DNA from: an uncultured Verrucomicrobiota bacterium
GTDB taxonomy: Bacteria > Verrucomicrobiota > Verrucomicrobiia > Chthoniobacterales > JACTMZ01
NCBI GenBank assembly: GCA_903953565.1
Contig: CAJBKE010000008.1
Span: forward strand, 1-47,058
Direction: 5' to 3'
DNA: 47,058 nucleotides
The notes under the pieces are model-generated. The model was not told the DNA's origin and did not search any database. It saw only the letters and a list, made by a program, of their open reading frames with translations. Position 1 is the first letter of the stretch; each line of letters starts with the position of its first letter. The position numbers and the translations under genes are program-made. Shown here one piece after another: positions 15,450 through 39,385 of the stretch.

Positions 15450-15456
15450 GCTGGGA

Positions 15457-22439: not shown

Positions 22440-22451
22440 GATGGTTTATGA

Positions 22452-22480: not shown

Positions 22481-22753
22481 CACCCCATGCGGCTACTAGA
22501 ACAGAGCCGTGACCGAAATCATGGTGCGGTCGGTGGCCGTCAAAGACATGGGTCGAACTTCCAAAGGCTGCGAACTTTGGTCGCAGGCTGGGTCGCGATT
22601 TCCCCATCGCGAACTCTCGGATGAAATATCGCACCGGGACGTCGCGATCCACAGCGAGTTGGCTCCCATGTCCGCATGATGGGCTCCGCGGTGGCGCTGT
22701 TGGGGGTAATCGCCTCGGTGAGATGCAGACGCGCAGGATGTCGCTCGTTCATA

Positions 22754-22885
22754 ATGCTGGCGCGCAAGATCGATGCGGCAGCCGAACACGGGATCGATGC
22801 AGTCATCTTCGACTGGAATCATTGCGACGACGGTCCGTCCCTCGACCGTCCTTTGGGCCGGGGCTTTTTCGGCGCGCTCAACAAC
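22754..22885 (+). pseudogene. fragment of a second WbsX/GH99-like gene
   Basis: The plus strand encodes MLARKIDAAAEHGIDAVIFD, then W, a short variable stretch, DDGP and RGFF-x3-NN. This matches residues about 68-110 of the intact WbsX-like protein (MARKIDAAADHGLDAFIFDW, NDGP, RGFLQAANN). Upstream the similarity fades in several frames. Downstream it ends abruptly where the last codons of the GPH symporter gene (22878) begin on the other strand, which suggests a deletion junction near 22885. The rest of 22440-22877 contains the deoR promoter and no other gene I can support. Confidence 0.6.
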
Positions 22886-24376: not shown

Positions 24377-26566
24377 TCAGTCGGATTTCTCGACAACCAA
24401 CAGGCTCGAATAAGGACCTATCGTCACGTTGACGGGAGTTTGCCGCGCCGCGATCGATCCGTCGAGCGGGTCGTAGACTTGCAAATCCCGTTTCCCACCG
24501 TCCGCAGACGACAGCGGAACGGACATGGGTTGCGCGCGGTAATTCACCAAGTAGTCGATACGCCGCCCCTCGCGCACAAAGCGCGCGATCAGAGGCGCGC
24601 CGTCCGTGCGAAGCGCGAAGCCCGGTGGCGAAACGGGACCGATCTCCTTGGCCACGAAGCCCGGTTTCACTGTTTTTTTCCCGGCGAAGAGCGAGCGCAC
24701 CTCTTCGTGTTCGCCGGGAGTATCGCCCAGCTCGGGCAGCGACTTCACCCAGATCAATTTTCCGCCCGCCTTTTCGAACTCCTCGAGCTTCTTCGCCACC
24801 GCGAGCGGGAGCACCTCGACTTCGGGCATGACAATGATGTCATAACGTCCGCCACCCGCGAGCAGTGCACCGTCCTCCACCCTCCCCTCCCGGATCCAGT
24901 CGCCATGCAGCCAGTTGAAATCGATGCCGGTCAGGATGAGAGAGCGCGCCACTTCACCCTGATCCGCAATGCGCTCGACCAAGCGGCGCCAAGCCTTTGG
25001 CCAGAACTCCGGAATCCACATCGACGACGAAGGAAGAAACTCCGCTTGGAATGTCTCGATCGGGTAGTAAACCGCGACCGTTGCGGCGCTGCGCGCCCCG
25101 CGCAGCACGAGCGAGAGGCGGCCGATGTATTCGTTGAGCGCACGGTAGTCCGCCGGATCGTATTGGTCCCAGTAGAGGTAATTCGTGATTTTGTTGACCC
25201 CGCAGAACGCCGCCATGTTGACAATGCGACGGATGTTCGGCGTGGGCAGAGTGAGATTCGGAGCGGAACGCGCAATCATCGGATCGAGAAGACCAGCCAC
25301 CGTCTCGCGGTTTTTCGCCTGCGCAACCGAACTGAGGAATTTCGGCATCCAGTAGTTCCACGGCGCACCGAAATGCAGCGCCTGGAGCACGAAAGACTGT
25401 CCGTCGGGCATGGGCAAGTCGACAGCGGGAACCTGCATAGGCTCGAGAAACTTGAAGAAATCCCCGTAGCCAATGACATGGTGCAACATGCTTTCCTCGA
25501 GCAGCGGATGCCCACCGGCGGAAACGCCGTTCCTCTCCGCCCAGGCCCCGATGCGGCCGGAGAAGTTCTCCGCCAGCACCGCACCGACCGTCTGGTAAAA
25601 ATGCCGGCGCACGAGCTTCGCTGCCCCATCGTCACCGCCATAGAGCGCAGGTAACCGCGGGAGCAGATCATAGCCGTGGTCTTTCTCGAAGCGCGCAGGC
25701 AATTCCGTATCCCACGGGATAAAAACCCGCCCGTTCTCGCGCGCTGTGCCGTCAAATTTGAAGGAAAGCGTCATGAGGTTCGGTTCGTTGGCGTAGAAGA
25801 CGTCCACCTTTCCGGCGAGCGGACCGAGCCGTTTGGCGTATTCCTCGTGCGTCAGCGCGACGAATTTTTCCATCGCCGCGGCGTTGAGCAGGTTGGGGTA
25901 ACGCCCGGTCGTTTTGAAACCTTCCTTGGTCGATTCGGCCTGAGTTCCTTCGCGGCTGATCTGCACGGCGAAGGCGCTCAGTTGCCACGGCCCCTCCAGA
26001 CCCATTGTCTCCACCCGGTCGGCCAGCACCGCGACCTGTTGCGCACGATCAAAGTTGGGCTTCCCGTCGACCAGCGGATACAAGAAGGCGTGGACATACT
26101 TCTCCGCGCCTGAGGGCAGATCGAGTTTCACCGCGGACGTGCCCTCGCCCGTCTTGGACACTTCCACGAGGCAACGCGTTTCGAAGTTCTGATCGGCCTC
26201 GACCACCAAGCCGCCAGCCATGCCGCTGGGGTAACCATTGTCGTCGGCGATCCACACATCGAACCCCGCTTCGTTCGCCGCCGCGATATTTTTGCCCATG
26301 TTGTCCCATGCTTCCTCCGAGCGCAGGTAGCCGTCCGACTGCATGAATAGCTTCACCCCACCGATCCCCGATTCGGCCATCTTGGCATACGGCAGCAAGG
26401 CGCCGTCGTGTTTACTATATTGGACGAGCCGGAATTCCGCCGGCGGATTAGCGAACTCGGCGTCGACCTTCTTCCAATCGGCCGAAACAGACACCGTGCC
26501 TACCGCGAGCAAGAAGGCGACAACAGTCAACTTGAGGCCGGACCGAACGGTGCAGCGCAATCGCAT
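24377..26566 (-). CDS. large secreted glycoside hydrolase, GH106-like (putative alpha-L-rhamnosidase type)
   Basis: A 729-residue exported protein. The ATG at 26566 is chosen because GGAG lies 8 bases upstream and a signal peptide follows (SGLKLTVVAFLLAVGTVSVSA). In-frame starts at 26608 and 26659 exist. The mature start (FANPPAEFRLVQYSKHDG) and AGFDVWIADDNGYPSGMAGG resemble the TIM barrel of GH106-type enzymes. YANEPN and ESMLHHVIGYGDFFKFLEP are further barrel segments. VNMAAFCGVNKITNYLYWDQY precedes a C-terminal Rossmann-like domain with YDIIVMPEVEVLPLAV as in GH42-like enzymes. The exact family is uncertain. It forms a unit with the GPH symporter downstream and has an AraC-type candidate site upstream. 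Confidence 0.7.
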   Translation of the reverse strand: MRLRCTVRSGLKLTVVAFLLAVGTVSVSADWKKVDAEFANPPAEFRLVQYSKHDGALLPYAKMAESGIGGVKLFMQSDGYLRSEEAWDNMGKNIAAANEAGFDVWIADDNGYPSGMAGGLVVEADQNFETRCLVEVSKTGEGTSAVKLDLPSGAEKYVHAFLYPLVDGKPNFDRAQQVAVLADRVETMGLEGPWQLSAFAVQISREGTQAESTKEGFKTTGRYPNLLNAAAMEKFVALTHEEYAKRLGPLAGKVDVFYANEPNLMTLSFKFDGTARENGRVFIPWDTELPARFEKDHGYDLLPRLPALYGGDDGAAKLVRRHFYQTVGAVLAENFSGRIGAWAERNGVSAGGHPLLEESMLHHVIGYGDFFKFLEPMQVPAVDLPMPDGQSFVLQALHFGAPWNYWMPKFLSSVAQAKNRETVAGLLDPMIARSAPNLTLPTPNIRRIVNMAAFCGVNKITNYLYWDQYDPADYRALNEYIGRLSLVLRGARSAATVAVYYPIETFQAEFLPSSSMWIPEFWPKAWRRLVERIADQGEVARSLILTGIDFNWLHGDWIREGRVEDGALLAGGGRYDIIVMPEVEVLPLAVAKKLEEFEKAGGKLIWVKSLPELGDTPGEHEEVRSLFAGKKTVKPGFVAKEIGPVSPPGFALRTDGAPLIARFVREGRRIDYLVNYRAQPMSVPLSSADGGKRDLQVYDPLDGSIAARQTPVNVTIGPYSSLLVVEKSD

Positions 26567-26640
26567 GGCGGAACTCCAGCGGCGACGGTTGGGAAGAGGT
26601 GAAGACATGAGGGGGCGCAGATAACGCGTGGGGGGCAGTT

Positions 26641-26704
26641 TGTATACCAACGAGGGCACGGCGTTGCGCGAAACATTCTGCCATAAAGGAGCAGAATCCT
26701 GCCA
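26641..26704 (-). promoter_or_regulatory. putative promoter with AraC-type direct-repeat site before the GH106-like gene
   Basis: On the minus strand, TGGCAGGA and TGGCAGAA repeat with a 21-bp period (26704-26676). A 28-base gap leads to TATACA (26646-26641). The same site and spacing precede the surface-protein gene at 1800, so both may respond to one regulator. The remainder of 26567-26820 shows no gene. Confidence 0.5.
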
Positions 26705-26820: not shown

Positions 26821-27717
26821 TCAGGCGGTGACGGAAGCATCCTCGAACAGTTGCCGAGCAATGTCGGCATAAAGCAGGGCCTGCGCATACCGGTCGGACT
26901 CCTCGACCATTTCACCGTCCGGCCCGGGAAACAGCCGGGCGTAGTAGTGAGTCCCGGACAGCAACTCCGGGGCGAAAACGAGAATGTCACCCGGACCGGC
27001 GCGATCGAGGAACCCGCGCATCGCCCGCGCCCAGATCGCCCGGAAGTCGGCGAAATAATCTATAACCCCGACCGCCGCCGCAGGGCGCGATGCGATGTCG
27101 TCGATGGGAACCTGCATATGCCCGGGACTCGCTATACGGCCGTGCATAAAGCCAATGCGGTCAAAGATGGGTTTCATGAACTCCATTTTCATCTCCAGCC
27201 CCCCATAGACCATTTCCTGTCCGCAGTAGTAATGACTGAAATCCCCGTTGAAGAGCACCTCGGGAAACTTCTTGGTGATCTGAACCGTGCGCCACATGTC
27301 CTGCGTGATCGTGGCTCGGTGGGTCTCGATGAAAATGGGCAACCGGGTTTTTTCCGAGGCGGCCAGGATGGCTTCGACCAGACAGAACACCTCTTTGTCG
27401 TCCTCGATCCCCCAGCCGACGTGGACCGTCAGGCACTGATCGCCGCGGTCGGCATGCCGTTGCGCGATGGGCAACGCGTCCCCGCGGGTGTTGATGCGGT
27501 CCAGGCCGCAAAACGGCATCACGTCGGGCGCCGGTGGTTCGCCGCCCGTGACCTGCACCCCTTCAAAACCATCCGCCCGGAGTCGGGCGATGCTTTCATC
27601 TCCCTCCCGCCCCGGCCAGAGGCTTCCCGGGCGCAACTCCTCGAGGTTGGCCAGGTTGAGGTAAACGCACAGCTTGGGCGCGTCCCGGGATCCATCATTC
27701 AGGTAGCGGGGCACCAT
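26821..27717 (-). CDS. xylose-isomerase-like TIM-barrel epimerase/isomerase, copy 1
   Basis: A 298-residue TIM-barrel protein of the sugar phosphate isomerase/epimerase (AP endonuclease 2-like) type. Likely metal-ligand segments are HVGWGIED, IFIETHRATITQD, NGDFSHYY, MHGRIASPGHMQVP and FAPEL; the E, D, H and E pattern is typical for these enzymes. There is no signal peptide, so it is cytoplasmic. It lies 57 bases after the PhyH-type oxygenase gene on the same strand. A paralogue at 35254-36153 follows a different oxygenase. Over the segment from LPIFIETHRA to MQVPID only 2 of 81 residues differ, and the DNA is nearly as similar. Function: probably isomerises or hydrolyses the product of the preceding oxygenase. 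Confidence 0.75.
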   Translation of the reverse strand: MVPRYLNDGSRDAPKLCVYLNLANLEELRPGSLWPGREGDESIARLRADGFEGVQVTGGEPPAPDVMPFCGLDRINTRGDALPIAQRHADRGDQCLTVHVGWGIEDDKEVFCLVEAILAASEKTRLPIFIETHRATITQDMWRTVQITKKFPEVLFNGDFSHYYCGQEMVYGGLEMKMEFMKPIFDRIGFMHGRIASPGHMQVPIDDIASRPAAAVGVIDYFADFRAIWARAMRGFLDRAGPGDILVFAPELLSGTHYYARLFPGPDGEMVEESDRYAQALLYADIARQLFEDASVTA

Positions 27718-27774
27718 TTAGATTTTTTTCCGGCTGTATGGGGCTGATCTCCATGGGTTGACCTTTTCGAGGAA

Positions 27775-28713
27775 TCAGCAGATGCGACGACTTGGCTGCA
27801 GATACTTCTCGTCCCTCGGGATCAGTTCGACCTCGTGTTTCCTCCAGTAATACTTCAAGTCGTCCCGCTGCCATCCCGCGTAGATTTCCTCCCACGACAA
27901 TTCCGTATGGGGATTGAGCGATCCTTCCTCGATCGGCTCGTCCGCGGGCTGATAGCGCACGTCCAGCGATAACCGGATCATTTCCTTCTGCTGGCAGCGC
28001 AAGCCTTTGTGGATGGTAAAACTCGGGAAGGTCAAGACGTCGCCTGCCTCGTATTCGACTTCCACCCAGTCCGTTTCCCACGGGCACGTTTGCGCCGCGA
28101 TGCTTCCGGCGCCCTTGGACGGTTGGATTGGCACGTAGCCGAGTTTGTGTGTTCCGCGCAAAACGGTCAAACCGCCCATCGTGCGCGGACAATCCCCCAG
28201 CGGAATCCACGCGGTCCATGTTTTGGAAGTGCCTTGGATCAGGGGAAAGTCCTGATGCGGCGGCGTAGGCACCATCGAGCGGTGTCCCGTGATCATCCGC
28301 ACGATGTGCCGCGCATGGACCAGAACCTCGCTTTGGAAAAGTTTCTCATACAAAGCGAGCAGACGGGGATGTTGCGGGAGGCGGTGAACACTCTCGACTT
28401 TTTGCGCGTCCTTGTAAGCGGCAATGCTCACCCCGATATCCAAGCGCATTTCTTCCTCGGGCACTTGGTTCAAGGCGTCCAGATCGATGACTCCGCCCTC
28501 CGCGTTTTGACCCGGCCCGCGCCATCCGTGCTTTTCGACCACGGCCAGCAAATCCCGCCTAACGGCATGAACGTCCTCTTTCGGCAACAGCTGCTTGAAA
28601 AACAAATAGCCGTCGGACTCCGCGCGTTCCCGCAACGCCTGCGGGTCATCGAGCAACGGGGAGGAATCGATCATGGTGGCTTTGGATTCTTTGGGGGCGA
28701 CCGCGGTGTTCAT
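27775..28713 (-). CDS. phytanoyl-CoA dioxygenase (PhyH)-family Fe(II)/2-oxoglutarate oxygenase
   Basis: A 312-residue protein with the PhyH double-stranded beta-helix. The iron triad is visible: His153 and Asp155 in PHQDFPLIQG, and His235 in TIHKGL. Arg247 (RLSLDVRY) should bind 2-oxoglutarate. Start candidates are ATG 28785, 28713 and 28674. I choose 28713, which leaves a 55-base gap to the divergent AraC gene; 28674 is nearly as good. PhyH enzymes hydroxylate small molecules and can dealkylate or initiate breakdown. Paired with the TIM-barrel gene and divergent AraC it forms a three-gene module that mirrors 35254-39385. Confidence 0.83.
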   Translation of the reverse strand: MNTAVAPKESKATMIDSSPLLDDPQALRERAESDGYLFFKQLLPKEDVHAVRRDLLAVVEKHGWRGPGQNAEGGVIDLDALNQVPEEEMRLDIGVSIAAYKDAQKVESVHRLPQHPRLLALYEKLFQSEVLVHARHIVRMITGHRSMVPTPPHQDFPLIQGTSKTWTAWIPLGDCPRTMGGLTVLRGTHKLGYVPIQPSKGAGSIAAQTCPWETDWVEVEYEAGDVLTFPSFTIHKGLRCQQKEMIRLSLDVRYQPADEPIEEGSLNPHTELSWEEIYAGWQRDDLKYYWRKHEVELIPRDEKYLQPSRRIC

Positions 28714-28768
28714 GCGAGCAATAAAGCCGCTTGCCCCGGAATCGGGAATGGCTGATTCTGGCAATAAC

Positions 28769-29674
28769 ATGACGTTTTCTATCAAGCGGAAGAAAAGAAA
28801 AACGCCAAAGCAAACACCGCGCCCGATCCTCGTTTACGGCAACTGGTTTCAGTTCAGGGCGGGAGAGAGACTGACGCGCTCCAGGGCGGTGGAGAGCAGG
28901 ATGTTGCTCTCTGTGCACAAAGGCTCAGGTGTTTTTCGAATCAATGGGGAGGACCACCCCGCCCGCACCGGTTCGTGGTTTTTTCTGCCTTGGGCACATG
29001 CCATCGAGTATGCCGCCGACGCCGCCGATCCGTTTCTGGTGGGCGGGCTTCACGTCATTCCTGATCATGACCATGGCTATCCCGTGCACAACCAAGTCGC
29101 GCACGAAAAGAGTGATCGTCTGGCTGGCGTAAAATATCGACGTGATGCCGACTTGTTGTGCGGAAAACATCTGCTGGAGGGATCTTTCGCTCCCCGGCAC
29201 TGCCGACTGCGTGCGCTGGTTGTTTATCTCATCGAATCTTTCGACCCGCAGCGACCCGACGAAGCAAAACAAAGGCAGTCAGCGGAATGGTTGCTGGAGG
29301 AAATAGGCATCGCGCTCGAGGACACGCCACCCTTGGGTCCAAAGCCGAGGCCTGAGGTTCTGGCGCGGGTGGAAGCTCATGTCCGGCAGAACCTCGACAA
29401 GCCCTTGAACGTTCCCGGGCTCGCGCGCGTGGGAAAATGCAGCGTGGCCGGCATTCACCGACTCTTTCGCCATTGGCATGATGATACCCCCGCAAAATGG
29501 ATTGCCGGAGAGCGAATCGAGCAGGCGGCCTACCTGCTGCGCACCACCCGCTCACCCGTGAAGAATATTGCGGAAGACGTCGGCATTCCCGACCAGTTCC
29601 AGTTTTCCCGCTTTTTCAAGCGCCACGCCGGCTGCTCTCCCCGCGAATACCGCAAGCGGCAGGGAATCCTGTAA
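28769..29674 (+). CDS. AraC-family transcriptional regulator
   Basis: A 301-residue AraC regulator with an N-terminal cupin-like sensor (SRMLLSVHKGSGVFRING, RTGSWFFLPWAHAIEY). The C-terminal DNA-binding domain of about 100 residues has LARVGKCSVAGIHRLFRHWHD, VKNIAEDVGIPDQFQFSRFF and CSPREYRK. The ATG at 28769 is chosen over 28673 because the earlier start would overlap the divergent PhyH gene. It is transcribed away from the PhyH/TIM-barrel pair and should control it. Its end is followed by a stretch of degraded genes. Confidence 0.92.
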   Translation: MTFSIKRKKRKTPKQTPRPILVYGNWFQFRAGERLTRSRAVESRMLLSVHKGSGVFRINGEDHPARTGSWFFLPWAHAIEYAADAADPFLVGGLHVIPDHDHGYPVHNQVAHEKSDRLAGVKYRRDADLLCGKHLLEGSFAPRHCRLRALVVYLIESFDPQRPDEAKQRQSAEWLLEEIGIALEDTPPLGPKPRPEVLARVEAHVRQNLDKPLNVPGLARVGKCSVAGIHRLFRHWHDDTPAKWIAGERIEQAAYLLRTTRSPVKNIAEDVGIPDQFQFSRFFKRHAGCSPREYRKRQGIL

Positions 29675-30310
29675 GCCTGCATACTGCCGTCGGTGACGCA
29701 TCGGAACCGTTTACATATAAGCATGCGCCCCGCAGGAGCGATCGCGTTGTTGTGGGGCTCAGAATGAAACAACGGACAATTCTCGAAAGGAACGGCAAAT
29801 GTCACGTCCGGCCAGCGCGACCGAATGTCGCAGATACGGGCACAGCGGCTCGCCTTTGGTGGCGCGACGGCGGGCGCCGGTCCATTGGGCGTTGCCGGGA
29901 AGTTTGGTCGGGTTTGGCATAAAAGTGGTCAATGGGCCGCGGCCCGCAGTTTGCGTTGCGTTTCCTCGGCACGTTGGCGGGTGATCGGGTAGAGCCACAT
30001 GATGCCAATGGCGAGAAGAAGCCCGGCGCATTGGAAGCCGACCAAGCCGGCTTTCATTTTCCATGCGGTGGATTCATCGAGACCCGCGCGCTCGACGATC
30101 TGCGGATCGTAGCCCGCCGCGGTGGCCATGTAGCCGCCCAGACCAAAGGTCATAAGACCGGTTCAGGTTGCGGATTTCCTCCGCCTGGATTTCGGTGCCA
30201 TCTGCCCGCACCAGCCGCAACCGGGCAAGGTTCAGGGCGTGCGGGTTGCACTTCATCCACTCCGTCACCTGCGGTCTGTCCGCGGCCACGATAACCGTGG
30301 ACAAGAAACC
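29675..30310 (-). pseudogene. cluster of three gene fragments on the minus strand
   Basis: No intact gene is present. Reading minus: (a) 30310 to about 30155 encodes STVIVAADRPQVTEW followed by a short NPHALNLARLRLVRADG stretch, which is coherent protein-like sequence of unidentified family, cut at both ends. (b) 30155 to 29929 switches frame to the C-terminal 75 residues of a GPH-type symporter, with a last helix (GLVGFQCAGLLLAIGIMWLYPIT) and a charged tail (RQRAEETQRKL). (c) 29920-29759 is a 53-residue frame (MPNPTKLPGNAQWTGARRR) that looks like the truncated start of another protein. The set looks like the decayed rest of an older sugar locus. Confidence 0.5.
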
Positions 30311-30444
30311 GAATGGGAAATATCGGTAATGTAACTCTTTGTGATATGTCGCAGCGCATGGCACGATTTTTTTGGAAATCTGACCATTTCAACAGGCTGC
30401 TAATGGCCCCCTTTAACTCTTTCTTCCCACGACTAGCGGCGAAC

Positions 30445-32496
30445 ATGGCGTCCAGGATGATCGTTCGGCCTAAGTCATCGCTTATCATTCCGTTTCTCGG
30501 GTTTGTTTTCGTCAGCTCGACCACGCAGGCTCCGGCCGCGACCAGTTCGCTCGACAATGGCACAGTCCGGATCACCGTCGACCTCGACCAAGGCGGCGGG
30601 ATCGTCGCGTTTCACCCGACGGGCCAAACAAATAACAGCGTGATCAACACATACGACCGTGGCCGTAATTGCCAGCAATCGTATTACTCCGGGCCGTCGC
30701 AGTTTTTGCCTGCTGGCACCACGCAAAATCCCAACTGGAACCCTTGGCCGTGGAATCCGGTTCAGGGGGGGGATTGCTATAACAACGGCTCCGGGACGAT
30801 CAGCTGGTCCAACAACGGCACCACGCTCTACGTGAAGTGCAGGCCCAAGCAGTGGGCGCTCCAGAACTACGACGCGGACTGCATCTTCGAGCAGTGGATC
30901 ACCTTGAACGGCAGCGTGGCGACGGTGCAGAACCGTCTCATCAACGGCCGCAGCGATACGACGCAGTATCAGGCCATGGACCAGGAACTGGGCGCTCTCT
31001 ACACATGGCGTGCCCTGAGCCAACTCTGGACCTACACGGGGACGCAGCCTTTCACGGGCGGCGCGCTCACGCAAATTCCGAAGACCGCCCCGCCGTGGGC
31101 CTATTTCCGGGCCACGGAAGGCTGGGCCGCCTACACCGCGAGCAGCGGCAGCAAGTGGGGCGTCGGGATTCTCGTGCGGGGGAACTGCTCCTTCATCGGC
31201 GGGTTCTCCGGCAGCACCACCTCCGGCACCCAGTCGAGCGTCAACACGGGCTACATCGCGCCGCTCCGTCGCGAGGTGATTGATCACAACATCGTTCACG
31301 ACTTCACCTACCAACTGATCCTCGGGAACCTGGCCGACATCCGCAATTACGCCGTCGGCCAGCAGGCGAACCTGAAGCCGAACTTCTTTTTTCGCGGCAC
31401 CCGGGCGGGGTGGACGTATCGAGTTGCGTCCGACTCCGGCTACCCCATTCCCGAAGACCACCTGCGCGTGAACGTGGACACCGGCGACCCGCAAATGTGG
31501 GGGCCGGAATGTTCATTCCAAGCCGCGGAGGTTCCGAAACTCTACATTCGGGCGGCCGTCTATTGCTCCGCCGGCACGCCAACCACGGCTCAGCTGTTCT
31601 GGGAAAAGGAAAATGGTGCTTCAGCAATGAGCGAAGCCCAGAGCTATTCGCTCCCGCTCATCAACGACGGCCAATACCACCTTTATACACTCGACCTCTC
31701 AAAGAATGCTTCTTGGACGGGGCAGATATCCCAGCTGCGGTTTGATCCAGTCTATAACGGCACTACCGGGGATTATGTGAAAGTGTCCGCGATCACTTCC
31801 ACCGCCCCCGGGGTGACCATCAGCCAGAGCGGTGGCTCGACGGTTGTGACCGAGGGCGGAGCCACCGACACCTACACGGTGGTGCTGACCGGCGAACCGA
31901 CGGCCAACGTGACCATCACTCCATCCCCGGACAGCCAGTTGACCGTTTCGCCGCCAAGTCTCACCTTCACCATCTCCAACTGGAGCACCCCGCAGACGGT
32001 CACCGTCACCGCAGTCAACGACGCGCTGGCGGAAGGCACCCACAGCGGAACGATCACCCACGCGGCCGCGAGCACCGACCCGGGCTACAACGGCATCGCC
32101 ATTGCCGCCGTCACCGCGACGATCACCGATGACGTTTCCTCTTTCAACGAATGGACCGGCGGCGAGGTTCCTATGACTCCGGGGTTGCTCACGAAGTATG
32201 CCGTCGGAGGAGCTGCGAGTCCGGCTGGTTTCAGCGAGCAATCCGCCGCGGGATTTTCGGATGCCAACTTCGCACTTACCGCCATCGTTCGGACCAACGA
32301 CCCTCTGCTTACGGTGGTTGGTCAGTCCTCGACGGATCTCATTACTTGGACCGACCTGGTCAACAACCCCTCGGGCACGCCGTCGTCCAGCCAGGCTGGT
32401 GCACCCTCCGGATGCGAGCGCCGCGATTTCTCGATCTCCACCGACACGGAACCCAAGATTTTTCTCCGCCTCGAGATAACCGACTCATCGCCGTGA
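30445..32496 (+). CDS. large secreted beta-rich protein with Calx-beta-like module
   Basis: A 683-residue exported protein of unknown function. The ATG at 30445 gives a signal peptide (MIVRPKSSLIIPFLGFVFV). Upstream in-frame ATGs from 30313 are possible but would bury it. Residues about 30-330 form an aromatic, Asn/Gly-rich beta-sandwich-like region (CFEQWITLNG-type strands, FFFRGTRAGWTYRV). A second beta domain (about 330-480) with YTLDLSKN and QLRFDPV resembles carbohydrate-binding modules. Residues about 490-590 are a Calx-beta-like repeat (VTEGGATDTYTVVLTGEPT, QTVTVTAVNDALAEGTHSG). The C-terminal ~90 residues resemble the conserved end domain of Verrucomicrobiota secreted proteins (CERRDF, IFLRLEI). 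Glycan binding or depolymerisation is likely but unproven. Confidence 0.7.
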   Translation: MASRMIVRPKSSLIIPFLGFVFVSSTTQAPAATSSLDNGTVRITVDLDQGGGIVAFHPTGQTNNSVINTYDRGRNCQQSYYSGPSQFLPAGTTQNPNWNPWPWNPVQGGDCYNNGSGTISWSNNGTTLYVKCRPKQWALQNYDADCIFEQWITLNGSVATVQNRLINGRSDTTQYQAMDQELGALYTWRALSQLWTYTGTQPFTGGALTQIPKTAPPWAYFRATEGWAAYTASSGSKWGVGILVRGNCSFIGGFSGSTTSGTQSSVNTGYIAPLRREVIDHNIVHDFTYQLILGNLADIRNYAVGQQANLKPNFFFRGTRAGWTYRVASDSGYPIPEDHLRVNVDTGDPQMWGPECSFQAAEVPKLYIRAAVYCSAGTPTTAQLFWEKENGASAMSEAQSYSLPLINDGQYHLYTLDLSKNASWTGQISQLRFDPVYNGTTGDYVKVSAITSTAPGVTISQSGGSTVVTEGGATDTYTVVLTGEPTANVTITPSPDSQLTVSPPSLTFTISNWSTPQTVTVTAVNDALAEGTHSGTITHAAASTDPGYNGIAIAAVTATITDDVSSFNEWTGGEVPMTPGLLTKYAVGGAASPAGFSEQSAAGFSDANFALTAIVRTNDPLLTVVGQSSTDLITWTDLVNNPSGTPSSSQAGAPSGCERRDFSISTDTEPKIFLRLEITDSSP

Positions 32497-32532
32497 CCCC
32501 AAACCAAAGAGTTGGTGAATTTTGTGTCAAAG

Positions 32533-32580
32533 CTGTTGCGCTCTTTGTGTTGTAGCGCAGCAACCCGCGGCTCATATAAA
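32533..32580 (+). promoter_or_regulatory. hairpin and TATAAA element before the isomerase gene
   Basis: TGCGCT and AGCGCA form a 6-bp hairpin with an 11-base loop. TATAAA follows at 32575-32580, only four bases before the ATG at 32585, which would give a leaderless message if used. No good -35 is visible at 17 bases, so an activator may be needed. The hairpin could also end transcription of the upstream gene, though it lacks a T-run. Confidence 0.35.
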
Positions 32581-32584
32581 CAGC

Positions 32585-34015
32585 ATGGATAAACATCCGC
32601 TCCGCGTCGGATTATTCGGCATCGGCCTCGAGGCTTATTGGCCGCAATTCGAAGGTCTGAAGCCGAAACTCGAAGGCTACCTCCAGCAAGTGGCGGAAAA
32701 GATCGGGCGGCCCGGCGTCGAAGTGTGCAATCTAGGCCTCGTCGATTCGCCGGAAAAAGCGATGGAAGCCGGACATGCTTTCCGTCGCGCCGATGTGGAT
32801 GTCATTTTCCTGCACGTCACGACCTACGCGCTAAGTTCGACGGTCTTGCCCGTTGTGCAACGGGCCAAAGTCCCCGTTATCATCCTCAACCTGCAACCGG
32901 TCGCCGCGCTCGACTACAAAGCATTCAACAAGATGGGCGACCGCACGAAAATGACCGGCGAATGGCTGGCCCACTGCGGAGCTTGTCCGGTGCCGGAGAT
33001 CGCCAACGCCTTCAACCGCGCACGCATCGGGTTCCATCAGGTCACCGGCACCCTGCAACCCGGCGATCCGGCTTGGCAGGAAATCGACGATTGGATCGAG
33101 GCCGCGCGCGTGGCGAACACCATGGCCCACAACCGCCTCGGGCTCATGGGCCACTACTACAACGGCATGCTCGACATTCATACCGATACCACACGCCAAG
33201 TCGCGTATTTCGGCGGACACCTCGAGATCGTCGAAGTCGAAGAACTTGCCGCAATGCGCCGCGGAGTCACCGCCGCAGAAACGCAAGCCAAGCTCGCCGA
33301 ATTCCGCCAGGCCTTCGACATCCAACCCGACTGCGCCCCGGTCGAACTCGAACGTGCGGCGCGCACTTCAGTGGCTTTGGACAAACTCGTCGCCGCGAAA
33401 AATCTCGGTTCCCTCGCCTACTACCACATGGGCACGGGCAACGAGGAGCACGAGGACGTGATGAGTTCGGTCATCCTCGGCAACTCGCTGCTCACCGCCC
33501 GCGGCATCCCCGTGGCCGGCGAATACGAAGTGAAAAATGCGCAGGCGATGAAGATCATGGACAGCTTCGGCGCGGGCGGTTCGTTCACCGAATATTACGC
33601 GATGGATTTCGACGACGACGTCGTGCTCATGGGCCACGATGGACCGGGCCATATCAAGATCGCCTCGGGCCAAACCAAAGTGCGCCCTCTGGAAGTCTAT
33701 CACGGTAAGGTTGGCAAAGGACTTTCCGTCGAGATGAGCGTGCAGCACGGACCAGTCACACTCCTTTCCGTCGTCGAGTATGCCGACGGTTCACTCAAGC
33801 TGCTCGTGGCCGAAGGCGAGTCCGTGGCCGGCCCGATCCTCGAAATCGGCAACACGAACAGCCGCTACCGTTTCCCCATCGGTGCCCGCGCCTTCGTCGA
33901 ACGATGGAACGCGCAGGGCCCCGCCCACCACTGCGCGGTCGGCGTCGGTCATCTTGCAGATCGTATGGCCAAGCTCGGCGCACTCCTCGCGATGGACGTA
34001 GTCCGCGTGTGCTGA
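32585..34015 (+). CDS. L-fucose/L-arabinose isomerase-family protein
   Basis: A 476-residue cytoplasmic enzyme. The N-terminal Rossmann-like domain starts LRVGLFGIGLEAYWPQF. The central part has LNLQPVAALDY and GEWLAHCGACPVPEIANAF. The C-terminal domain holds the expected metal ligands: Glu in GEYEVKNAQAMKIMD, Asp in YAMDFDDD and His in LMGHDGPGHI. This places it in the FucI/AraA superfamily, nearer the AraA-like branch. It is distinct from the isomerase at 1995-3401. The RhaT-type symporter gene starts 34 bases downstream, so the substrate may be L-rhamnose or another deoxy- or pentose sugar. Confidence 0.82.
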   Translation: MDKHPLRVGLFGIGLEAYWPQFEGLKPKLEGYLQQVAEKIGRPGVEVCNLGLVDSPEKAMEAGHAFRRADVDVIFLHVTTYALSSTVLPVVQRAKVPVIILNLQPVAALDYKAFNKMGDRTKMTGEWLAHCGACPVPEIANAFNRARIGFHQVTGTLQPGDPAWQEIDDWIEAARVANTMAHNRLGLMGHYYNGMLDIHTDTTRQVAYFGGHLEIVEVEELAAMRRGVTAAETQAKLAEFRQAFDIQPDCAPVELERAARTSVALDKLVAAKNLGSLAYYHMGTGNEEHEDVMSSVILGNSLLTARGIPVAGEYEVKNAQAMKIMDSFGAGGSFTEYYAMDFDDDVVLMGHDGPGHIKIASGQTKVRPLEVYHGKVGKGLSVEMSVQHGPVTLLSVVEYADGSLKLLVAEGESVAGPILEIGNTNSRYRFPIGARAFVERWNAQGPAHHCAVGVGHLADRMAKLGALLAMDVVRVC

Positions 34016-34049
34016 TCAGGATACGCGCGCTGCTAAAACTCCCCCAGCC

Positions 34050-35240
34050 GTGAACCTCGCCCTCGGAGTCATCTTGCATTGGATCGGCGGTTTGGCCGCC
34101 GCAAGTTTTTACATTCCCTACCGCGCGGTGCAGCGCTGGTCCTGGGAAACTTATTGGCTGGTTGGCGGATTTTTCAGTTGGATCGTCGCTCCTTCGCTCA
34201 TCGGAGCACTGCTCGTCCCCGATCTTTACGGGCACATTGCTGCGGCACCGCGCACGGCGATTTTCTGGGCTTATTTCTTCGGCGTGCTCTGGGGCATCGG
34301 AGGCATCACCTTCGGCCTCACCATGCGTTACCTCGGCATCGCGCTCGGCATGGCCGTCGTGCTCGGATTCTGCGCCGCCTTCGGCACGCTCATGCCGCCG
34401 ATCGTCGCGGGGGATTTCGGCGCACTGCTCGCCTCGGCCTCGGGCCTCACCGTCCTGGCCGGCGTGGCCGCGTGCCTGTTCGGTATCGGCATCAGCGGCG
34501 CGGCCGGCATGTCGAAGGAATCGGAGCTTTCAGACGAAGAGAAACTCGCCGCGGTCAAAGAGTTCAATTTCAAGAGAGGCATGCTCGTTGCCGCGTTCTC
34601 CGGCGTCATGAGCGCGTGCTTCGCTTACGGTCTCGCGGCCGGAAGACCGATCGGTGAAATCACGCTACAAGCGCTTGAGGCGTCCGGCGGCAGCCCTCTC
34701 TGGCAAAACCTTCCCGTGCTCGTCGTGGTGCTCTGGGGCGGATTCACCACCAATTTTCTTTGGTGCGTGGCGCTCAATGTCCGCAACCGCTCCACCCACC
34801 AATACCTCAACACGAGTCCCTCGCATCTCGCCGAAATGGGCGCGGCGGAGGCGGTGATGATGTCGGACGCCCCGGAGATCGCAGCCAACCGCGAAGCCGC
34901 CGCCCACGGCTCCTCGACCGGCCCAGTGCGTCCGGAGGGACCCGCACCGCTCGTGCGCAATTACCTCCTCTGCGCCCTCGCCGGGCTGACGTGGTATTTG
35001 CAGTTTTTCTTCTACAGCATGGGCGAGACCAAGATGGGAACCTACGCCTTCTCCAGTTGGACGCTGCACATGGCCTCCATCATCATTTTCAGCACGCTGT
35101 GGGGACTGGCACTCCACGAATGGCGCGGCTCGAGCCGCCGGACGATGACACTGGTTCTACTAGGCCTCTTCGTCCTCGTCGCCTCGACCATCATCGTCGG
35201 CTACGGCAACTACCTTGGCGGGAAAACCGGCACCCACTGA
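34050..35240 (+). CDS. rhaT: L-rhamnose:H+ symporter RhaT-like
   Basis: A 396-residue membrane protein with ten or so hydrophobic segments. Family features: an N-terminal helix ending SFYIPYRAVQRWSWETYWL, then GGFFSWIVAPSLIGALLVPD, FGVLWGIGGITFGLTMRYLGIALGMAVVLG, and the last helices YLQFFFYSMGETKMGTYAFSSWTLHMASIIIFSTLWG. These match the RhaT family. It is longer than the usual about 344 residues because of a loop with Ser/Pro/Ala content (about 265-305). It is co-transcribed with the isomerase and converges on the TIM-barrel copy 2, 13 bases away. Confidence 0.88.
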   Translation: MNLALGVILHWIGGLAAASFYIPYRAVQRWSWETYWLVGGFFSWIVAPSLIGALLVPDLYGHIAAAPRTAIFWAYFFGVLWGIGGITFGLTMRYLGIALGMAVVLGFCAAFGTLMPPIVAGDFGALLASASGLTVLAGVAACLFGIGISGAAGMSKESELSDEEKLAAVKEFNFKRGMLVAAFSGVMSACFAYGLAAGRPIGEITLQALEASGGSPLWQNLPVLVVVLWGGFTTNFLWCVALNVRNRSTHQYLNTSPSHLAEMGAAEAVMMSDAPEIAANREAAAHGSSTGPVRPEGPAPLVRNYLLCALAGLTWYLQFFFYSMGETKMGTYAFSSWTLHMASIIIFSTLWGLALHEWRGSSRRTMTLVLLGLFVLVASTIIVGYGNYLGGKTGTH

Positions 35241-35253
35241 CGCGCGAGGTCGA

Positions 35254-36153
35254 TTATTCCTGCGAGCTAGCGTCCTCGAACAGGCAACGCGCAATTTTGG
35301 CGTAAAGAAGCGCCTGCGCATAACGATCGGATTCCTCGACCACCATCCCGTCCGACCCGGGGAAGAGCCGTGCATAGTAGTGGGCGCCACCGAGCAACTC
35401 CGGCGCGAAGACAAGCACATCGCCGGGACCCGCATAGTTGCGGAATCCGCGCATCGCCCGCGCCCAGATCGTCCGGAAGTCGGCGAAGTAATCCACCACC
35501 CCGACGGCCGCAGCAGGACGGGAGTTGGTCTTGTCGATGGGAACCTGCATATGCCCGGGACTCGCTATGCGCCCGTGCATGAAGCCGATGCGGTCGAAGA
35601 TGGGCGCCATGAACTCCATTTTCATCTCCACCCCCCCATAGACCATTTCCTGTCCGCAGTAATAATGACTGAAGTCCCCGTTGAAGAGCACCTCGGGAAA
35701 CTTCTTGGTGATCTGAACCGTGCGCCACATGTCCTGCGTGATCGTGGCGCGGTGGGTTTCGATAAAAATCGGAAGTCCGGTTCTTTCCGATGCAGAGAGG
35801 ATGGCCTCGACGAGGCGAAAAACATCGTCATCGTCCTCGATCCCCCAGCCAACGTGGACAGTCAAGCATAGGTCGCCTCGCGCCGCATGCTTCTCGGCGA
35901 GGGGCAACGCCTCGCCGGGCTGATTGATCCGTCCGAGCCCGCAGTAGGCAAGCGGACCGGGCGGCTGAGGACCGTCATCCGTGAGCTGGACACCCTCGAA
36001 ACCGTCGGCGGCCAGTCGCTCGAGCAGCTCTTCCTTTGCCACGCCGGTCCAGATCGAATCGCGGCGCAGATCGACAAGATTATCTAGGTTGAGGAAGACC
36101 CGCAGCTTAGGGGCATCAACCGATCCGTCGTTGAGGTAACGTGGGCGTTTCAA
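35254..36153 (-). CDS. xylose-isomerase-like TIM-barrel epimerase/isomerase, copy 2
   Basis: A 299-residue near-duplicate of the protein at 26821-27717, with the same putative metal-ligand segments (HVGWGIED, IFIETHRATITQD, NGDFSHYY, HGRIASPGHMQVP). Start: an ATG at 36213 would give 20 extra residues inside the oxygenase gene. A TTG at 36153 gives MKRPRYLNDGS, which lines up with MVPRYLNDGS of copy 1. That TTG overlaps the stop of the upstream desaturase fusion as TTGA. The overlap implies translational coupling, so the TIM-barrel protein should act on the fusion's product. Confidence 0.78.
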   Translation of the reverse strand: MKRPRYLNDGSVDAPKLRVFLNLDNLVDLRRDSIWTGVAKEELLERLAADGFEGVQLTDDGPQPPGPLAYCGLGRINQPGEALPLAEKHAARGDLCLTVHVGWGIEDDDDVFRLVEAILSASERTGLPIFIETHRATITQDMWRTVQITKKFPEVLFNGDFSHYYCGQEMVYGGVEMKMEFMAPIFDRIGFMHGRIASPGHMQVPIDKTNSRPAAAVGVVDYFADFRTIWARAMRGFRNYAGPGDVLVFAPELLGGAHYYARLFPGSDGMVVEESDRYAQALLYAKIARCLFEDASSQE

Positions 36154-38444
36154 AATTCGTCGCAAGCTATCTGGGACGCGCTCACGCCGAGCTCGGTGAG
36201 CATCTTCCGGCACGCCTTGACCATCATCGGGGGCCCACAGAGGTAAAATTCCACAGCACGCACGTCCGGATGGTGACGAAGATGCCGGTCGAGAACGACC
36301 TCATGGATGAATCCCGCGGGACCATCCCAGCTGTCCTCCGGCAGCGGCGAGGAGAGCGCCGGGTGAAAACTGAAATTGCCGTGGCTAGCCGCGAGATCTT
36401 CGAAGTATTCCCCGTAATAGAGCTCCTGTTTCGAACGGGCTCCATACCAATAACTAATCTTGCGTGGCGAGTTCGCGGACTCAAGCAAGTGGCTGAGGTG
36501 TGCACGCAGCGGCGCCATGCCCGCACCGCCCCCGATGTAGACCATTTCCTTCTGCGTCGGCTTGACGTGGAAGTCACCGAAAGGCCCGACTGCGGTCACT
36601 TCGTCCCCCGGCTTCAAACTGAAGACGTAGGAGGATCCGATACCCGGGGGGCAATCTTGTCCGGGCGGCGGGGTGGCGATGCGGACATTGAATCGGAGCG
36701 TCCGCTCGCGGGACGGATTTGACGCCAGTGAGTAATTGTTGCGCTTACCGGACGAGGGATTGGCGGCCTCGAGATCGAAGACGTGCTGTTGGCGCCAGAC
36801 GGCTGCAAACGGCTCGGGAATGTCGAAGTCCCGGAAGCGAATGCGATCGTAAGGCGGGATTTCGATTTGCAAGTAATCGCCCGGAGTGAAATCAAGCTTT
36901 GCGGAAGAATCCAACGGTTCCAGGACAAGTTCTTTGATGAAGGTTGCGACACTCCGATTGCTGACAACCCGAAACTGCAGCGTCGCTTGCTGACGGGACC
37001 CCGCTCCGCCCGCGCGGAGAACGTTGAGCCATAACCGGCCGCCACGCTCCTTGATCGGGTAAGTGGCAAGCCCGCGGCATATGGGGGCCCGGGCAGGCGA
37101 ACCGTCGGCGAGATGAAACCGGCCGTTGTGTTTGGGGCATTCTATAATGCCGTCCTTGACGAGGCCGCCTGCGAGATGGGTGTTGCCATGGGTGCAGATG
37201 CCATCGGTGGCGTGGAGCGCACCCCGCTCGTCGCGGATCAGGGCATAGGTTTTGCGCCCATGGTCGAAACGAAGCACATCGGAAGCATCGAGATCGGCGG
37301 CCGCACATACCTCGATCCAGCCCGCCGCATCGGGCTTGGCGTCGTTTCCCTGCGGTTGCTCGGCGCCACTGTTCCGGGGCGGCGGGAGCTTGCGCTTCAC
37401 GTGGTAGGACGGATCAGACACCTGCCGCAGCACAGCCGGCAATATTTCCCGCCAAGCGGCTGCCAGCGACGGATAAGGCGGCGGACAGTCGTCTTTGATC
37501 AGCTCATGCAGTTTCGGAAGGTTGTGATAAGGCACCAACGGGAACATGTGATGCTCGAGGTGGTAGTTCATGTTCCAGTAAACAAAGCGACTGAACGGAT
37601 TCATGAAAACCGTGCGGCAGTTCAACCGGTGGTCGAGCACGTTCTCCGCCAGCCCGGCGTGCTGTGTCGTGTTGTGGACAATCATGAGCCACGTGCCGAA
37701 AAAATGCGGGAGGATGACGAGGAAGACCGGAACCCAGGATTTCAGCGCGATGGCGAGGACAATGGTTGCGACATAGATACCGAGGACAATACGCGCGTTG
37801 CGGAAAATTTTTGGAAATTCGCTCTCCGGAATAAACGTCCTCTCATCCGGCGTCACACGCCCGAACGCATGACCGATTAGTCCGGGGAAATACCCGCGGT
37901 AAACACCGATCGCGAAAAGGCTCATGAGATGCGACGTTATGTCCGGAGGGCGGGAAACTTGGATTTCCGGATCCCGACCGACGATGATGGTGTCTGAATG
38001 GTGCCGTGTGTGGCTCCAGCGCCAGACCACGGACTCGCGCATGACCATGAACGACGCCAGTTCGTAGAGGGCGTTGTTCAGCCAGTCCGTTTTGAATGCG
38101 GTTCCGTGACCCGCCTCATGCCATCGAGAGTCCGAAGCTGTGGCGTAGAGCACGGCATACAGAGCGTAGGGCAACACAACCCACCAACTGCCCCAAAGCG
38201 CAACAGTGCCCCACGCCGTGAGCCCCAATAGCGCAAACCACAGCAGCGTGTCGCGCAGCGCCGGCCCATCGCGCCGCTCCAGCAGGCCGCGCAACGCTTT
38301 GCGCGGAACCGGGGTTTGATACCAATCCGCCTCGGCGAGACCCATTTCGATCGCCTTGGCTGCATTGTTTCCAGTGAGGGAGTAGTCGAGACGCTCCGGT
38401 GGCTTGGTGACCGGAGCAAACGCCGTGGGGGAGTCGTGGTCCAT
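36150..38444 (-). CDS. three-domain oxygenase: desaturase-type diiron domain, Rieske ferredoxin, NqrF-like FAD/NAD reductase
   Basis: A 764-residue fusion. Residues about 40-350: membrane diiron oxygenase of the fatty-acid-desaturase/MocD type, with His boxes HEAGH (109-113), HTRHH (145-149) and HLEHH (295-299), and hydrophobic segments between. Residues about 375-475: Rieske domain with Cys417/His419 (ICTHGNT) and Cys436/His439 (CPKHNG). Residues about 485-764: reductase with RNNYSLAS (FAD), GGGAGMAPLRAHL (NAD) and CGPPMMVKA, close to the flavin part of NqrF but without its plant-type ferredoxin. The chain holds a full electron path from NADH to the diiron site. It parallels MocD, MocE and MocF of rhizopine demethylation. 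It is divergent from an AraC gene and coupled to the TIM-barrel gene. The ATG at 38444 is chosen over 38573, which overlaps the AraC gene. Confidence 0.88.
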   Translation of the reverse strand: MDHDSPTAFAPVTKPPERLDYSLTGNNAAKAIEMGLAEADWYQTPVPRKALRGLLERRDGPALRDTLLWFALLGLTAWGTVALWGSWWVVLPYALYAVLYATASDSRWHEAGHGTAFKTDWLNNALYELASFMVMRESVVWRWSHTRHHSDTIIVGRDPEIQVSRPPDITSHLMSLFAIGVYRGYFPGLIGHAFGRVTPDERTFIPESEFPKIFRNARIVLGIYVATIVLAIALKSWVPVFLVILPHFFGTWLMIVHNTTQHAGLAENVLDHRLNCRTVFMNPFSRFVYWNMNYHLEHHMFPLVPYHNLPKLHELIKDDCPPPYPSLAAAWREILPAVLRQVSDPSYHVKRKLPPPRNSGAEQPQGNDAKPDAAGWIEVCAAADLDASDVLRFDHGRKTYALIRDERGALHATDGICTHGNTHLAGGLVKDGIIECPKHNGRFHLADGSPARAPICRGLATYPIKERGGRLWLNVLRAGGAGSRQQATLQFRVVSNRSVATFIKELVLEPLDSSAKLDFTPGDYLQIEIPPYDRIRFRDFDIPEPFAAVWRQQHVFDLEAANPSSGKRNNYSLASNPSRERTLRFNVRIATPPPGQDCPPGIGSSYVFSLKPGDEVTAVGPFGDFHVKPTQKEMVYIGGGAGMAPLRAHLSHLLESANSPRKISYWYGARSKQELYYGEYFEDLAASHGNFSFHPALSSPLPEDSWDGPAGFIHEVVLDRHLRHHPDVRAVEFYLCGPPMMVKACRKMLTELGVSASQIACDEF

Positions 38445-38503
38445 AAGGGTAAAAACGTAGTTCAGGCAGACATCCGCGGGAATGGACACGACCGCACGAT
38501 CGC

Positions 38504-39385
38504 ATGTATTTTCCGGATATGGCGAAAGTCCCCGACCGGTATCGACTGTATTCCTTTCCAGAGCAGCACACACCTCTCGGGCGTGTGCATTTCGGGGGTG
38601 AACTCCCGCAAAGCCAAGGAACGGGATGGGATGGCTATCGCGAATACGGCATGTATGCCGCGGTCTTGATCACGCGCGGCAACGGCGTCTATCGGGATGC
38701 GGCCGGCCGGGAAATTGGATTGTGTGAGGGGTGCGTAATTCTAGTCTTTCCGGAAGTTCCCCACCACTACGGACCGGCACCGGGCAAACTTTGGGATGAG
38801 GTCTTCGTGGCTTTCAGCGGGGCCGCCTTCGACGCCTGGCGAGGCCACGGGCTGGATCCGATTCACCCCGTCTGGCGCCTGCAGAACGCGCGCCGCGAGG
38901 CGGATTTCCTCCGCTCCCTATTGCGAAAAAAGGTCGAGGACCTGCGGGGTTCAATCAAACAAGCCGCGGATGTGCACGAGATGCTGGCGCGATGGTTGGC
39001 ACAGCGACCGAATGAACAGGGCATGCCGGTGTGGCTGGAAAAAGCCCGCCGGACTTTGGCTGCTCTACCGGAGCAGCGGACCCCAGCCTCCGTCGCACGG
39101 GAGTGCGGCCTCCACGCCGACGCATTCCGCCGCGCCTTCCGGAAATGGACCGGGGAAACGCCAGCCCAGTTCCGGCGCCGACACCGCCTGGCCATGGCTG
39201 TCGATCTGCTCCGGCGACAAGAACTCAGCCTGGGGCAGATCGCCGAGTCACTCGGCTTTCACGACGCGTTTCATTTTTCGAAACGCTTCAAGGAAGCTTA
39301 TGGAACCCCACCCTCCGTCTTCCGCAACATGCCTCCCGAACCAATAGGGAAGATGCTCCGTCCGTGTCGCAAGTCGACGCGGTAA
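38504..39385 (+). CDS. AraC-family transcriptional regulator
   Basis: A 293-residue regulator. The N-terminal cupin-like domain has GMYAAVLITRGNGVYRDAAG and CEGCVILVFPEVPHHYGP. The C-terminal ~100 residues have two helix-turn-helix motifs (ASVARECGLHADAFRRAFRKWTG; LGQIAESLGFHDAFHFSKRF) and the family end GTPPSVFRNM. ATG at 38504 or 38522 are both possible starts. It is divergent from the desaturase-Rieske-reductase gene (60-77 bases between starts) and should control it. It is not closely similar to the AraC gene at 28769. Confidence 0.92.
   Translation: MYFPDMAKVPDRYRLYSFPEQHTPLGRVHFGGELPQSQGTGWDGYREYGMYAAVLITRGNGVYRDAAGREIGLCEGCVILVFPEVPHHYGPAPGKLWDEVFVAFSGAAFDAWRGHGLDPIHPVWRLQNARREADFLRSLLRKKVEDLRGSIKQAADVHEMLARWLAQRPNEQGMPVWLEKARRTLAALPEQRTPASVARECGLHADAFRRAFRKWTGETPAQFRRRHRLAMAVDLLRRQELSLGQIAESLGFHDAFHFSKRFKEAYGTPPSVFRNMPPEPIGKMLRPCRKSTR

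Follow-up and report, generated by a model that had tools for sequence, protein, structure and literature searches.

The 47,058-nucleotide stretch analysed here (the window, positions 1 to 47,058 of contig CAJBKE010000008.1) comes from an uncultured Verrucomicrobiota bacterium with a draft genome of 2.86 Mb that is 96% complete, and it raises the question of why one family of TIM-barrel (TIM) proteins should be coupled to two unrelated oxygenases. In each of two modules an AraC-family regulator gene is divergent from an oxygenase gene followed by a TIM gene; the oxygenase of module 1 is a PhyH-type Fe(II)/2-oxoglutarate enzyme, and that of module 2 is a fusion of diiron desaturase, Rieske and reductase domains. 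We propose, at even odds, that both modules feed one catabolic pathway for O-methylated sugars, each as an alternative entry to it, and that they act by oxidative O-demethylation. The sugars would most likely be O-methyl 6-deoxyhexoses, methyl-rhamnose for example. Oxidative O-demethylation is the best-supported mechanism, if unproven; we infer the substrate, the release of formaldehyde, the TIM reaction and the regulation. The oxygenase would hydroxylate the methoxy carbon of the sugar, the hemiacetal would break down to the free sugar and formaldehyde, and the constant TIM partner would isomerise or epimerise the sugar, before or after demethylation. Only mono-oxygenation of the ether methyl would be needed, so that unrelated enzymes (PhyH, a cytochrome P450, or a diiron enzyme that carries its own Rieske and reductase domains) would suffice. 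The divergent AraC regulators could give each module its own switch, responding for instance to the methyl position, to oxygen or to the supply of cofactor.

Two modules with unrelated oxygenases

Both modules lie where the earlier note on this DNA had placed them, with open reading frames (ORFs), strands as it described and intact active-site motifs (Table 1). Its claim that the oxygenases are unrelated also holds, the PhyH protein being recognised by Pfam with 61 bits and the fusion by FA_desaturase (PF00487, 126 bits), Rieske (62 bits) and NAD_binding_1 (59 bits). The His boxes of the fusion (HEAGH at 152, HTRHH at 188 and HLEHH at 338), its CTH...CPKH Rieske motif and the PhyH triad (H177-x-D179 with H259) are all intact; we take the His boxes, CTH...CPKH and HxD...H to be the catalytic motifs of desaturases, Rieske proteins and PhyH enzymes. 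The PhyH ORF is separated from that of TIM copy 1 by 57 bp. Since the PhyH and fusion ORFs each overlap their divergent AraC ORF and homology begins later, the start codons of these two genes are not fixed. The genome holds two TIM copies only and a single fusion.

The two TIM proteins had been called near-identical, which fits their core (79 of 81 residues from LPIF to VPID) and not the whole protein, where 231 of 293 residues (79%) are identical. Third codon positions of the two copies agree in 38 of 40 cases at codons 141-180, against 5-14 of 18-20 per block elsewhere (exception, 16 of 20 at codons 221-240), and the patch contains a 74-bp exact match (27242-27315 = 35675-35748). Together, these two features suggest that local gene conversion acted on the core on top of conservation. 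The modules do share their AraC/oxygenase/TIM layout, as the earlier note saw, but they are not duplicates: by blastn the TIM gene is their only common part (77.6% over 879 columns), and the two AraC proteins match over just 79 helix-turn-helix residues, at 34%. On these comparisons only the TIM gene was copied, the layout having been assembled twice.

Partners of the TIM gene in other genomes

The neighbourhood survey covered the best 80 of 178 TIM relatives from a genome scan, which is not a random sample and includes two loci from one genome in at least two cases (L025/L032 and L054/L074). Genes in these loci are longest-ORF calls, with 16 TIM frames restored by script. The fusion stands directly upstream of the TIM gene on the same strand in 39 of the 80 loci, at a distance of 3-181 bp; five of these are cut by contig ends (L031, L033, L038, L047, L059), one (L030) holds a remnant, and the fusion genes of L026, L046, L051 and L059 are split or shortened, possibly by assembly error. 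By phylum, the fusion loci divide into 25 Verrucomicrobiota, 11 Acidobacteriota, and one each from Kiritimatiellota, Pseudomonadota and an unplaced genome. Strains that carry the module include Verrucomicrobia bacterium IMCC26134 (L048) and Kiritimatiellaeota bacterium B1221 (L055). A PhyH gene takes the same place in seven loci (L068, L076, L083, L091, L092, L098 and L099, of which L083 is cut) and a P450 gene in one (L044; PF00067 62 bits, with the heme motif), while two loci (L063, L066) are cut at the TIM gene itself. The recurring neighbourhood on which the earlier note had made its proposal depend thus exists, for the fusion (39/80) as for PhyH (7/80). PhyH was sought with a purpose-built profile derived partly from the same loci and P450 by a single motif, and 'none found' has those sensitivities throughout. 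Outside the survey, L153 has a 63% relative of the fusion adjoining a TIM protein only 33% identical to the query, with the TIM gene first (reverse order) and the ORFs overlapping. As for the L030 remnant, it is a degenerate 95-aa piece of the fusion (7700-7987) beside an intact TIM gene.

Searching plasmids with the TIM protein returned 74 records, led by Rhizobium, Bradyrhizobium and Sinorhizobium, all below 60% identity. Twelve plasmid loci, chosen from the TIM search listings and not at random, were fetched, and each has a membrane diiron gene or a P450 gene within 6 kb of TIM. The diiron enzyme is of the sterol-desaturase type in 10 of the 12 (by annotation or tblastn; L127 confirmed as PF04116) and of the FA-desaturase type in Caballeronia (L135), and Agrobacterium larrymoorei (L129) has a P450 with ferredoxin and FAD reductase. 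The TIM profile matches 11 of the 12 loci, the gene of L131 being a fragment; it does not match the TIM protein of Rhizobium C104 that adjoins MocDEF-like genes (L124). In Acidiphilium, MocD-, MocE- and MocF-like genes are directly followed by the gene of a TIM homologue (E 1.9e-26 among nine proteins). The oxygenase swap is wider than the earlier note saw, with P450 as a third type and the proteobacterial sterol-desaturase type as a fourth. PanB-like ketopantoate hydroxymethyltransferase genes stand beside MocDEF-like or sterol-desaturase-type genes in rhizobial plasmid loci (L124, L126, L130, L134); that they provide a further one-carbon (C1) sink is speculative.

The history of these partnerships was followed on a TIM tree built from the 80 loci without L055, L066 and L077 (stopped, cut or split) and with L019, L021, L022 and the two window copies added. 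The fusion label changes 9 times on this tree, compared to 27.6 in shuffles, and there are at least three partner changes. Window copy 1 lies inside an 11-row clade (SH-aLRT 99) whose other 10 rows are all fusion, and the P450 row (L044) lies inside a 38-row clade (SH-aLRT 96) with 31 fusion rows. As the window PhyH copy nests inside a fusion clade, the PhyH-TIM pair looks like a replacement of the fusion. The Acidobacterial PhyH proteins compared are only 25-30% identical to that of the window, and PhyH would therefore have entered at least twice. Three further genomes of the order have closer relatives (64-66%), each encoded divergently from a 39-43% relative of the module 1 regulator (L121, L122, L123; the contig of L123 ends behind PhyH). 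Two of these genomes (G463, G581) have no TIM match and the third (G468) has TIM with a P450. Because such AraC-PhyH pairs occur without TIM in L121 and L122 and in TIM-less genomes, module 1 looks like a pre-existing pair to which a TIM copy was added. Of the two modules, the second probably has the older arrangement, since relatives of its AraC regulator (77% and 72%) stand divergent from fusion-TIM in L028 and L032. In locus L122, a URO-D/MtaA-like gene (6321-8524) is found directly behind the window-type PhyH gene, at the place that TIM has in the window, and the genome of this locus (G468) carries its P450-TIM elsewhere (L044/L120).

One-carbon genes, substrates and the TIM fold

A link to C1 chemistry is drawn from the formaldehyde dehydrogenase and corrinoid/URO-D genes near TIM and from the likeness of the fusion to MocD and MocE. 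A glutathione-independent formaldehyde dehydrogenase gene (TIGR02819, 752 bits, cut-off 637) lies directly behind TIM in two Chloroflexi loci, L072 and L084; in L084 a desaturase gene also follows TIM, at 1.5 kb. Mesorhizobium (L132) has, between its MocDEF-like genes and TIM, a gene whose annotation is class III alcohol/S-(hydroxymethyl)glutathione dehydrogenase. Relatives of MtaB, corrinoid protein, RACo, DUF1638 or URO-D occur in 10 of 82 loci (L024, L025, L027, L032, L035, L040, L044, L058, L070, L074), and L022 has a URO-D protein by Pfam. Three of the eight MtaB copies in the 45 TIM-bearing genomes searched are within 8 kb of TIM, for which chance gives about 3e-6 if positions are random in 4.4-Mb genomes. 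Six of these 45 genomes (those of L023-L066 minus L032, plus L070 and L077) have MtaB, against 13 of 387 genomes of the window's phylum (Fisher p 0.009; the 45 include other phyla and the 387 controls are all from that phylum). MtaB as a general requirement was rejected on these same counts. The clearest run is that of L027 (238-14129), where RhaT, FGGY kinase, URO-D, fusion, TIM, DUF1638, RACo, AraC, corrinoid protein and MtaB follow one another on the same strand, which suggests use of methanol or methoxy groups by a corrinoid system; its MtaB scores below the NCBIfam cut-off (411 vs 720 bits), so no substrate is assigned to it.

Regarding the substrate, our best guess for the window is rhamnose-type sugars. 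RhaT-like genes occur in 4 of 82 loci (L027, L029, L048, L065), and in L123 a 9-kb stretch holds, besides the PhyH-AraC pair, genes for a rhamnulose-1-phosphate aldolase/dehydrogenase (1058 bits, cut-off 634), a LutB protein (482 bits, cut-off 445) and a cut rhamnulokinase (275 bits, below the cut-off of 528). GH106-like proteins are present in the window, in the PhyH locus L122 (a 55% relative) and, weakly (26%), in the lone-TIM locus L057. A mutarotase near TIM in 9 of 82 loci fits a reducing sugar, and the ketohexokinase-type gene that follows TIM in L053, where no oxygenase stands alongside, would suit a ketose product. For the rhizobial loci, cyclitols are plausible substrates. That both modules serve one route is indirectly supported by partner genes common to fusion and PhyH loci: a WbsX-type gene and a relative of the window's MFS_2 transporter accompany fusion-TIM in L028 (73%) and PhyH in L122 (59%), and Gfo/Idh, second TIM and mutarotase genes accompany the fusion in L048, L064 and L065, with Gfo/Idh and second TIM genes at the PhyH loci L091, L092 and L099 and a second TIM alone in L098. 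Sugars of the proposed kind are reported from exopolysaccharides, namely 3-O-methylrhamnose and 3-O-methylfucose in Botryococcus (PMC8750022) and 2,3-, 3- and 4-O-methyl rhamnose in cyanobacteria (PMC4500136).

The TIM proteins themselves form a rare family: at E 1e-10, 10 of 387 genomes from the window's phylum had a match, as did 7 of 213 from its order and 4 of 297 from the phylum to which the Acidobacterial genome G600 belongs. Neither window copy matches a Pfam or NCBIfam family at E 0.001, PF01261 (AP_endonuc_2) included; the homologue in L125 does pass PF01261 (33.0 vs 31.1 bits). A scan of viral contigs with copy 2 found no relative. The predicted structure (pLDDT 96.4) has an XylE-like fold, with VIA Z up to 17.4 over 232 aligned residues, and its best matches include the isomerase Art22, IolE, CarB, DgpB/C and D-allulose 3-epimerase, as well as a keto-glucal hydratase (Z 15.4-17.4, rmsd 3.1-4.1 and identity 7-16% among the matches listed). 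E130, D158 and E250 (numbered by the first row of alignment A2) are invariant in 82 TIM sequences and H191 is kept in at least 90%; all four lie in or beside strands of the model. We thus describe the protein as a predicted XylE-like barrel with a putative Glu-Asp-His-Glu metal set. It has its fold, and may have the metal set, in common with IolE, D-allulose 3-epimerase, DgpB/CarB and Art22, but at 7-16% identity and with no Pfam match it makes up a family of its own, marked by the motifs ETHR and HGR. In a control, the TIM profile did not match a different XylE-like barrel, the second TIM of L048. The reaction, a guess from the modelled fold, is the most uncertain point of the proposal. The DgpB/CarB matches were rejected as proof of a lyase, plain epimerases being within 1 Z.

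Known systems, competing readings and gene neighbourhood

MocDEF is the demethylase of rhizopine catabolism. Like the rhizopine mocDEF genes of Rhizobium/Sinorhizobium, the fusion combines a MocD-like diiron desaturase with a MocE-like Rieske domain, as judged via Acidiphilium MocD- and MocE-like proteins, to which these domains are 58% and 45% identical. The best Rieske model among the matches listed is TIGR02377 (MocE), at 102.7 bits and below its cut-off of 136.15. The moc genes are reported to be needed for the catabolism of rhizopines, which include 3-O-methyl-scyllo-inosamine (PMC10107442). The same source describes MocC of Sinorhizobium L5-30 as essential for rhizopine use, with no function assigned to it. 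The window system differs in having three domains in one protein, an NqrF-like reductase and a constant TIM partner, and 36 of the 39 fusion loci belong to Verrucomicrobiota or Acidobacteriota. The C-terminal part of the fusion matches nqrF (326 bits, cut-off 295) and not Pyr_redox_2, the family of the Shinella MocF-like protein. Naming the fusion Na+-NQR subunit F from this equivalog match was rejected, as only the FAD/NAD part matches; automatic naming of 36150-38573 as NqrF would be wrong. In marine Flavobacteriia, a P450 likewise removes the methyl ether of a sugar, 6-O-methyl-D-galactose, as formaldehyde; that system has one oxygenase class and an alcohol dehydrogenase neighbour, and the cited excerpt mentions no TIM partner (PMC10033563). 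Corrinoid methyltransferase genes (MtaB, MtaC, RACo, MtaA-like URO-D) lie near fusion-TIM or P450-TIM in several loci; the window case differs in that its genome is without MtaB. The demethylation chemistry is covered by known kinds, MocDEF and the P450 acting on methyl-galactose. For a fixed TIM partner with exchangeable oxygenases we found no description in our searches of open-licence PubMed Central papers, in agreement with the earlier note, which knew of none.

A wider proposal, which we put somewhat short of an even chance, is that bacteria of several phyla may have built a demethylation module with exchangeable parts around the TIM family. TIM would be its fixed core, and oxygenases of at least four unrelated families (PhyH, P450, sterol-desaturase-type diiron, and FA-desaturase-type diiron with Rieske) would have been plugged in on separate occasions, the C1 unit going to formaldehyde dehydrogenase in some lineages and to corrinoid methyltransferases in others. 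The ether methyl is chemically stable. If the proposal is true, the family would define a route by which bacteria in general use O-methylated sugars and cyclitols, carbon compounds for which few demethylases are known, and a family-wide marker gene would let sugar demethylation be traced in genomes. It would also be a clear example of a conserved partner around which unrelated enzymes have taken each other's place, and a TIM family without an assigned reaction would become directly testable.

Several observations weigh against oxidative O-demethylation by these modules. No oxygenase was found directly upstream of TIM in 31 of the 80 loci; five of the 31 carry PhyH or a desaturase at another place within 2 kb (L071, L084, L086, L093, L095), and five have less than 2 kb of upstream sequence; two Acidobacterial genomes (G874, G914) carry two TIM copies each, none with an adjoining oxygenase, and the PhyH relatives of L121 and L122 have no TIM alongside. 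The formaldehyde dehydrogenase locus L072 had no desaturase gene nearby in our search, and MtaB near TIM in L027, L035 and L074 points to methanol and not formaldehyde. The C1 models searched in the window's genome were MtaB, B12-binding_2, TIGR02818 and TIGR02819 only: MtaB gave 0 matches, neither formaldehyde dehydrogenase (TIGR02818, TIGR02819) exceeded its cut-off, other formaldehyde routes not having been searched, and the single B12-binding_2 match falls in a frame of 1410 aa, longer than a free corrinoid protein would be. The last of these searches of the window's own genome lowered our estimate from slightly better than even to even. A PDB sequence search with copy 1 and the family profile gave no usable relative (AsbF at E 0.023), so the TIM reaction is a guess from the fold. 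The earlier suggestion of demethylation feeding a shared TIM step is partly supported: it has the formaldehyde dehydrogenases, corrinoid/URO-D and rhamnose genes and MocD/MocE homology on its side, but the window's own genome showed no MtaB and neither formaldehyde dehydrogenase over cut-off.

MtaB beside some modules may mean that methanol is released instead of formaldehyde. Hydroxylation of a ring carbon, the methoxy-bearing one or its neighbour, would yield methanol and a keto-sugar, the TIM protein acting on the keto-sugar as a lyase, hydratase or epimerase, in the manner of DgpB/CarB/IolE, with MtaB/MtaC taking up the methanol. The same-strand run of L027, in which MtaB, corrinoid protein, RACo and DUF1638 accompany fusion-TIM, argues for this, as do MtaB in L035 and L074 and the fold matches to CarB, DgpB/C, IolE and keto-glucal hydratase. 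However, formaldehyde dehydrogenases adjoin TIM in two other lineages, MtaB is limited to 6 of 45 genomes and absent from that of the window, the P450 precedent attacks the methyl group (PMC10033563) and plain epimerases reach a tied Z in the fold list, and we consider ring hydroxylation unlikely. It is quite unlikely that the modules act on unrelated substrates, with TIM paralogues recruited separately and the AraC-oxygenase-TIM layout being a common operon style; neither the AraC proteins nor the oxygenases are duplicates between modules, and AraC-PhyH pairs occur without adjoining TIM in L121 and L122, but the gene conversion patch keeps the TIM cores alike, the MFS_2 transporter (73%, 59%) and WbsX-type family are common to fusion-TIM L028 and PhyH L122, and Gfo/Idh and second TIM genes are common to fusion and PhyH loci. 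The oxygenases might also hydroxylate or desaturate the sugar or cyclitol itself without any demethylation, the C1 genes having come to lie nearby in catabolic islands by chance. Oxidation of C-H bonds is common among PhyH and desaturase enzymes, the window PhyH has PtlH, SnoN and SnoK as its relatives of solved structure, and the searched C1 genes were not found in the window's genome; the MtaB-TIM linkage above chance placement and two different formaldehyde dehydrogenases directly beside TIM stand against this reading, which we regard as very unlikely.

Table 1. Coordinates of the modules, of adjoining window genes and of the formaldehyde dehydrogenase genes in two Chloroflexi loci.
Feature	Position	Strand	Detail
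MFS_2 sugar transporter	22878..24341	-	relatives: L028 fusion-TIM locus 73%, L122 PhyH locus 59%
GH106-like (alpha-L-rhamnosidase-like) protein adjoining module 1	24377..26659	-	PF17132 29.2 bits (cut-off 29)
TIM-barrel copy 1, 298 aa, partner of PhyH	26821..27717	-	putative metal-site residues E130, D158, H191, E250
PhyH-type Fe(II)/2-oxoglutarate oxygenase	27775..28785	-	PF05721 61 bits (cut-off 22); HxD...H
AraC-family regulator, module 1, divergent from PhyH	28673..29674	+	PF12833 66 bits
Sugar isomerase-like, arabinose isomerase C-terminal domain, between modules	32522..34015	+	PF11762 32.7 bits (cut-off 25)
L-rhamnose/proton symporter RhaT, end to end with TIM copy 2	34050..35240	+	NF010024 512.6 bits (cut-off 468)
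TIM-barrel copy 2; ORF overlaps fusion gene end	35254..36213	-	
Fusion: membrane diiron desaturase + MocE-like Rieske + NqrF-like FAD/NAD reductase, 807 aa	36150..38573	-	
AraC-family regulator, module 2, divergent from fusion	38504..39385	+	AraC-type HTH (Pfam)
Formaldehyde dehydrogenase behind TIM, L072	8936-10126		
Formaldehyde dehydrogenase behind TIM, L084	2454-3650		

The product of the gene between the modules (32522..34015) probably has a sugar isomerase-like role. Positions 5445-24341 of the window form a large catabolic island with genes for a class II aldolase, WbsX, melibiase, beta-helix and GH43-like proteins, together with GlcD/GlcF-type FAD oxidase and Fe-S subunits, a DeoC/LacD aldolase, Gfo/Idh and two MFS_2 transporters.

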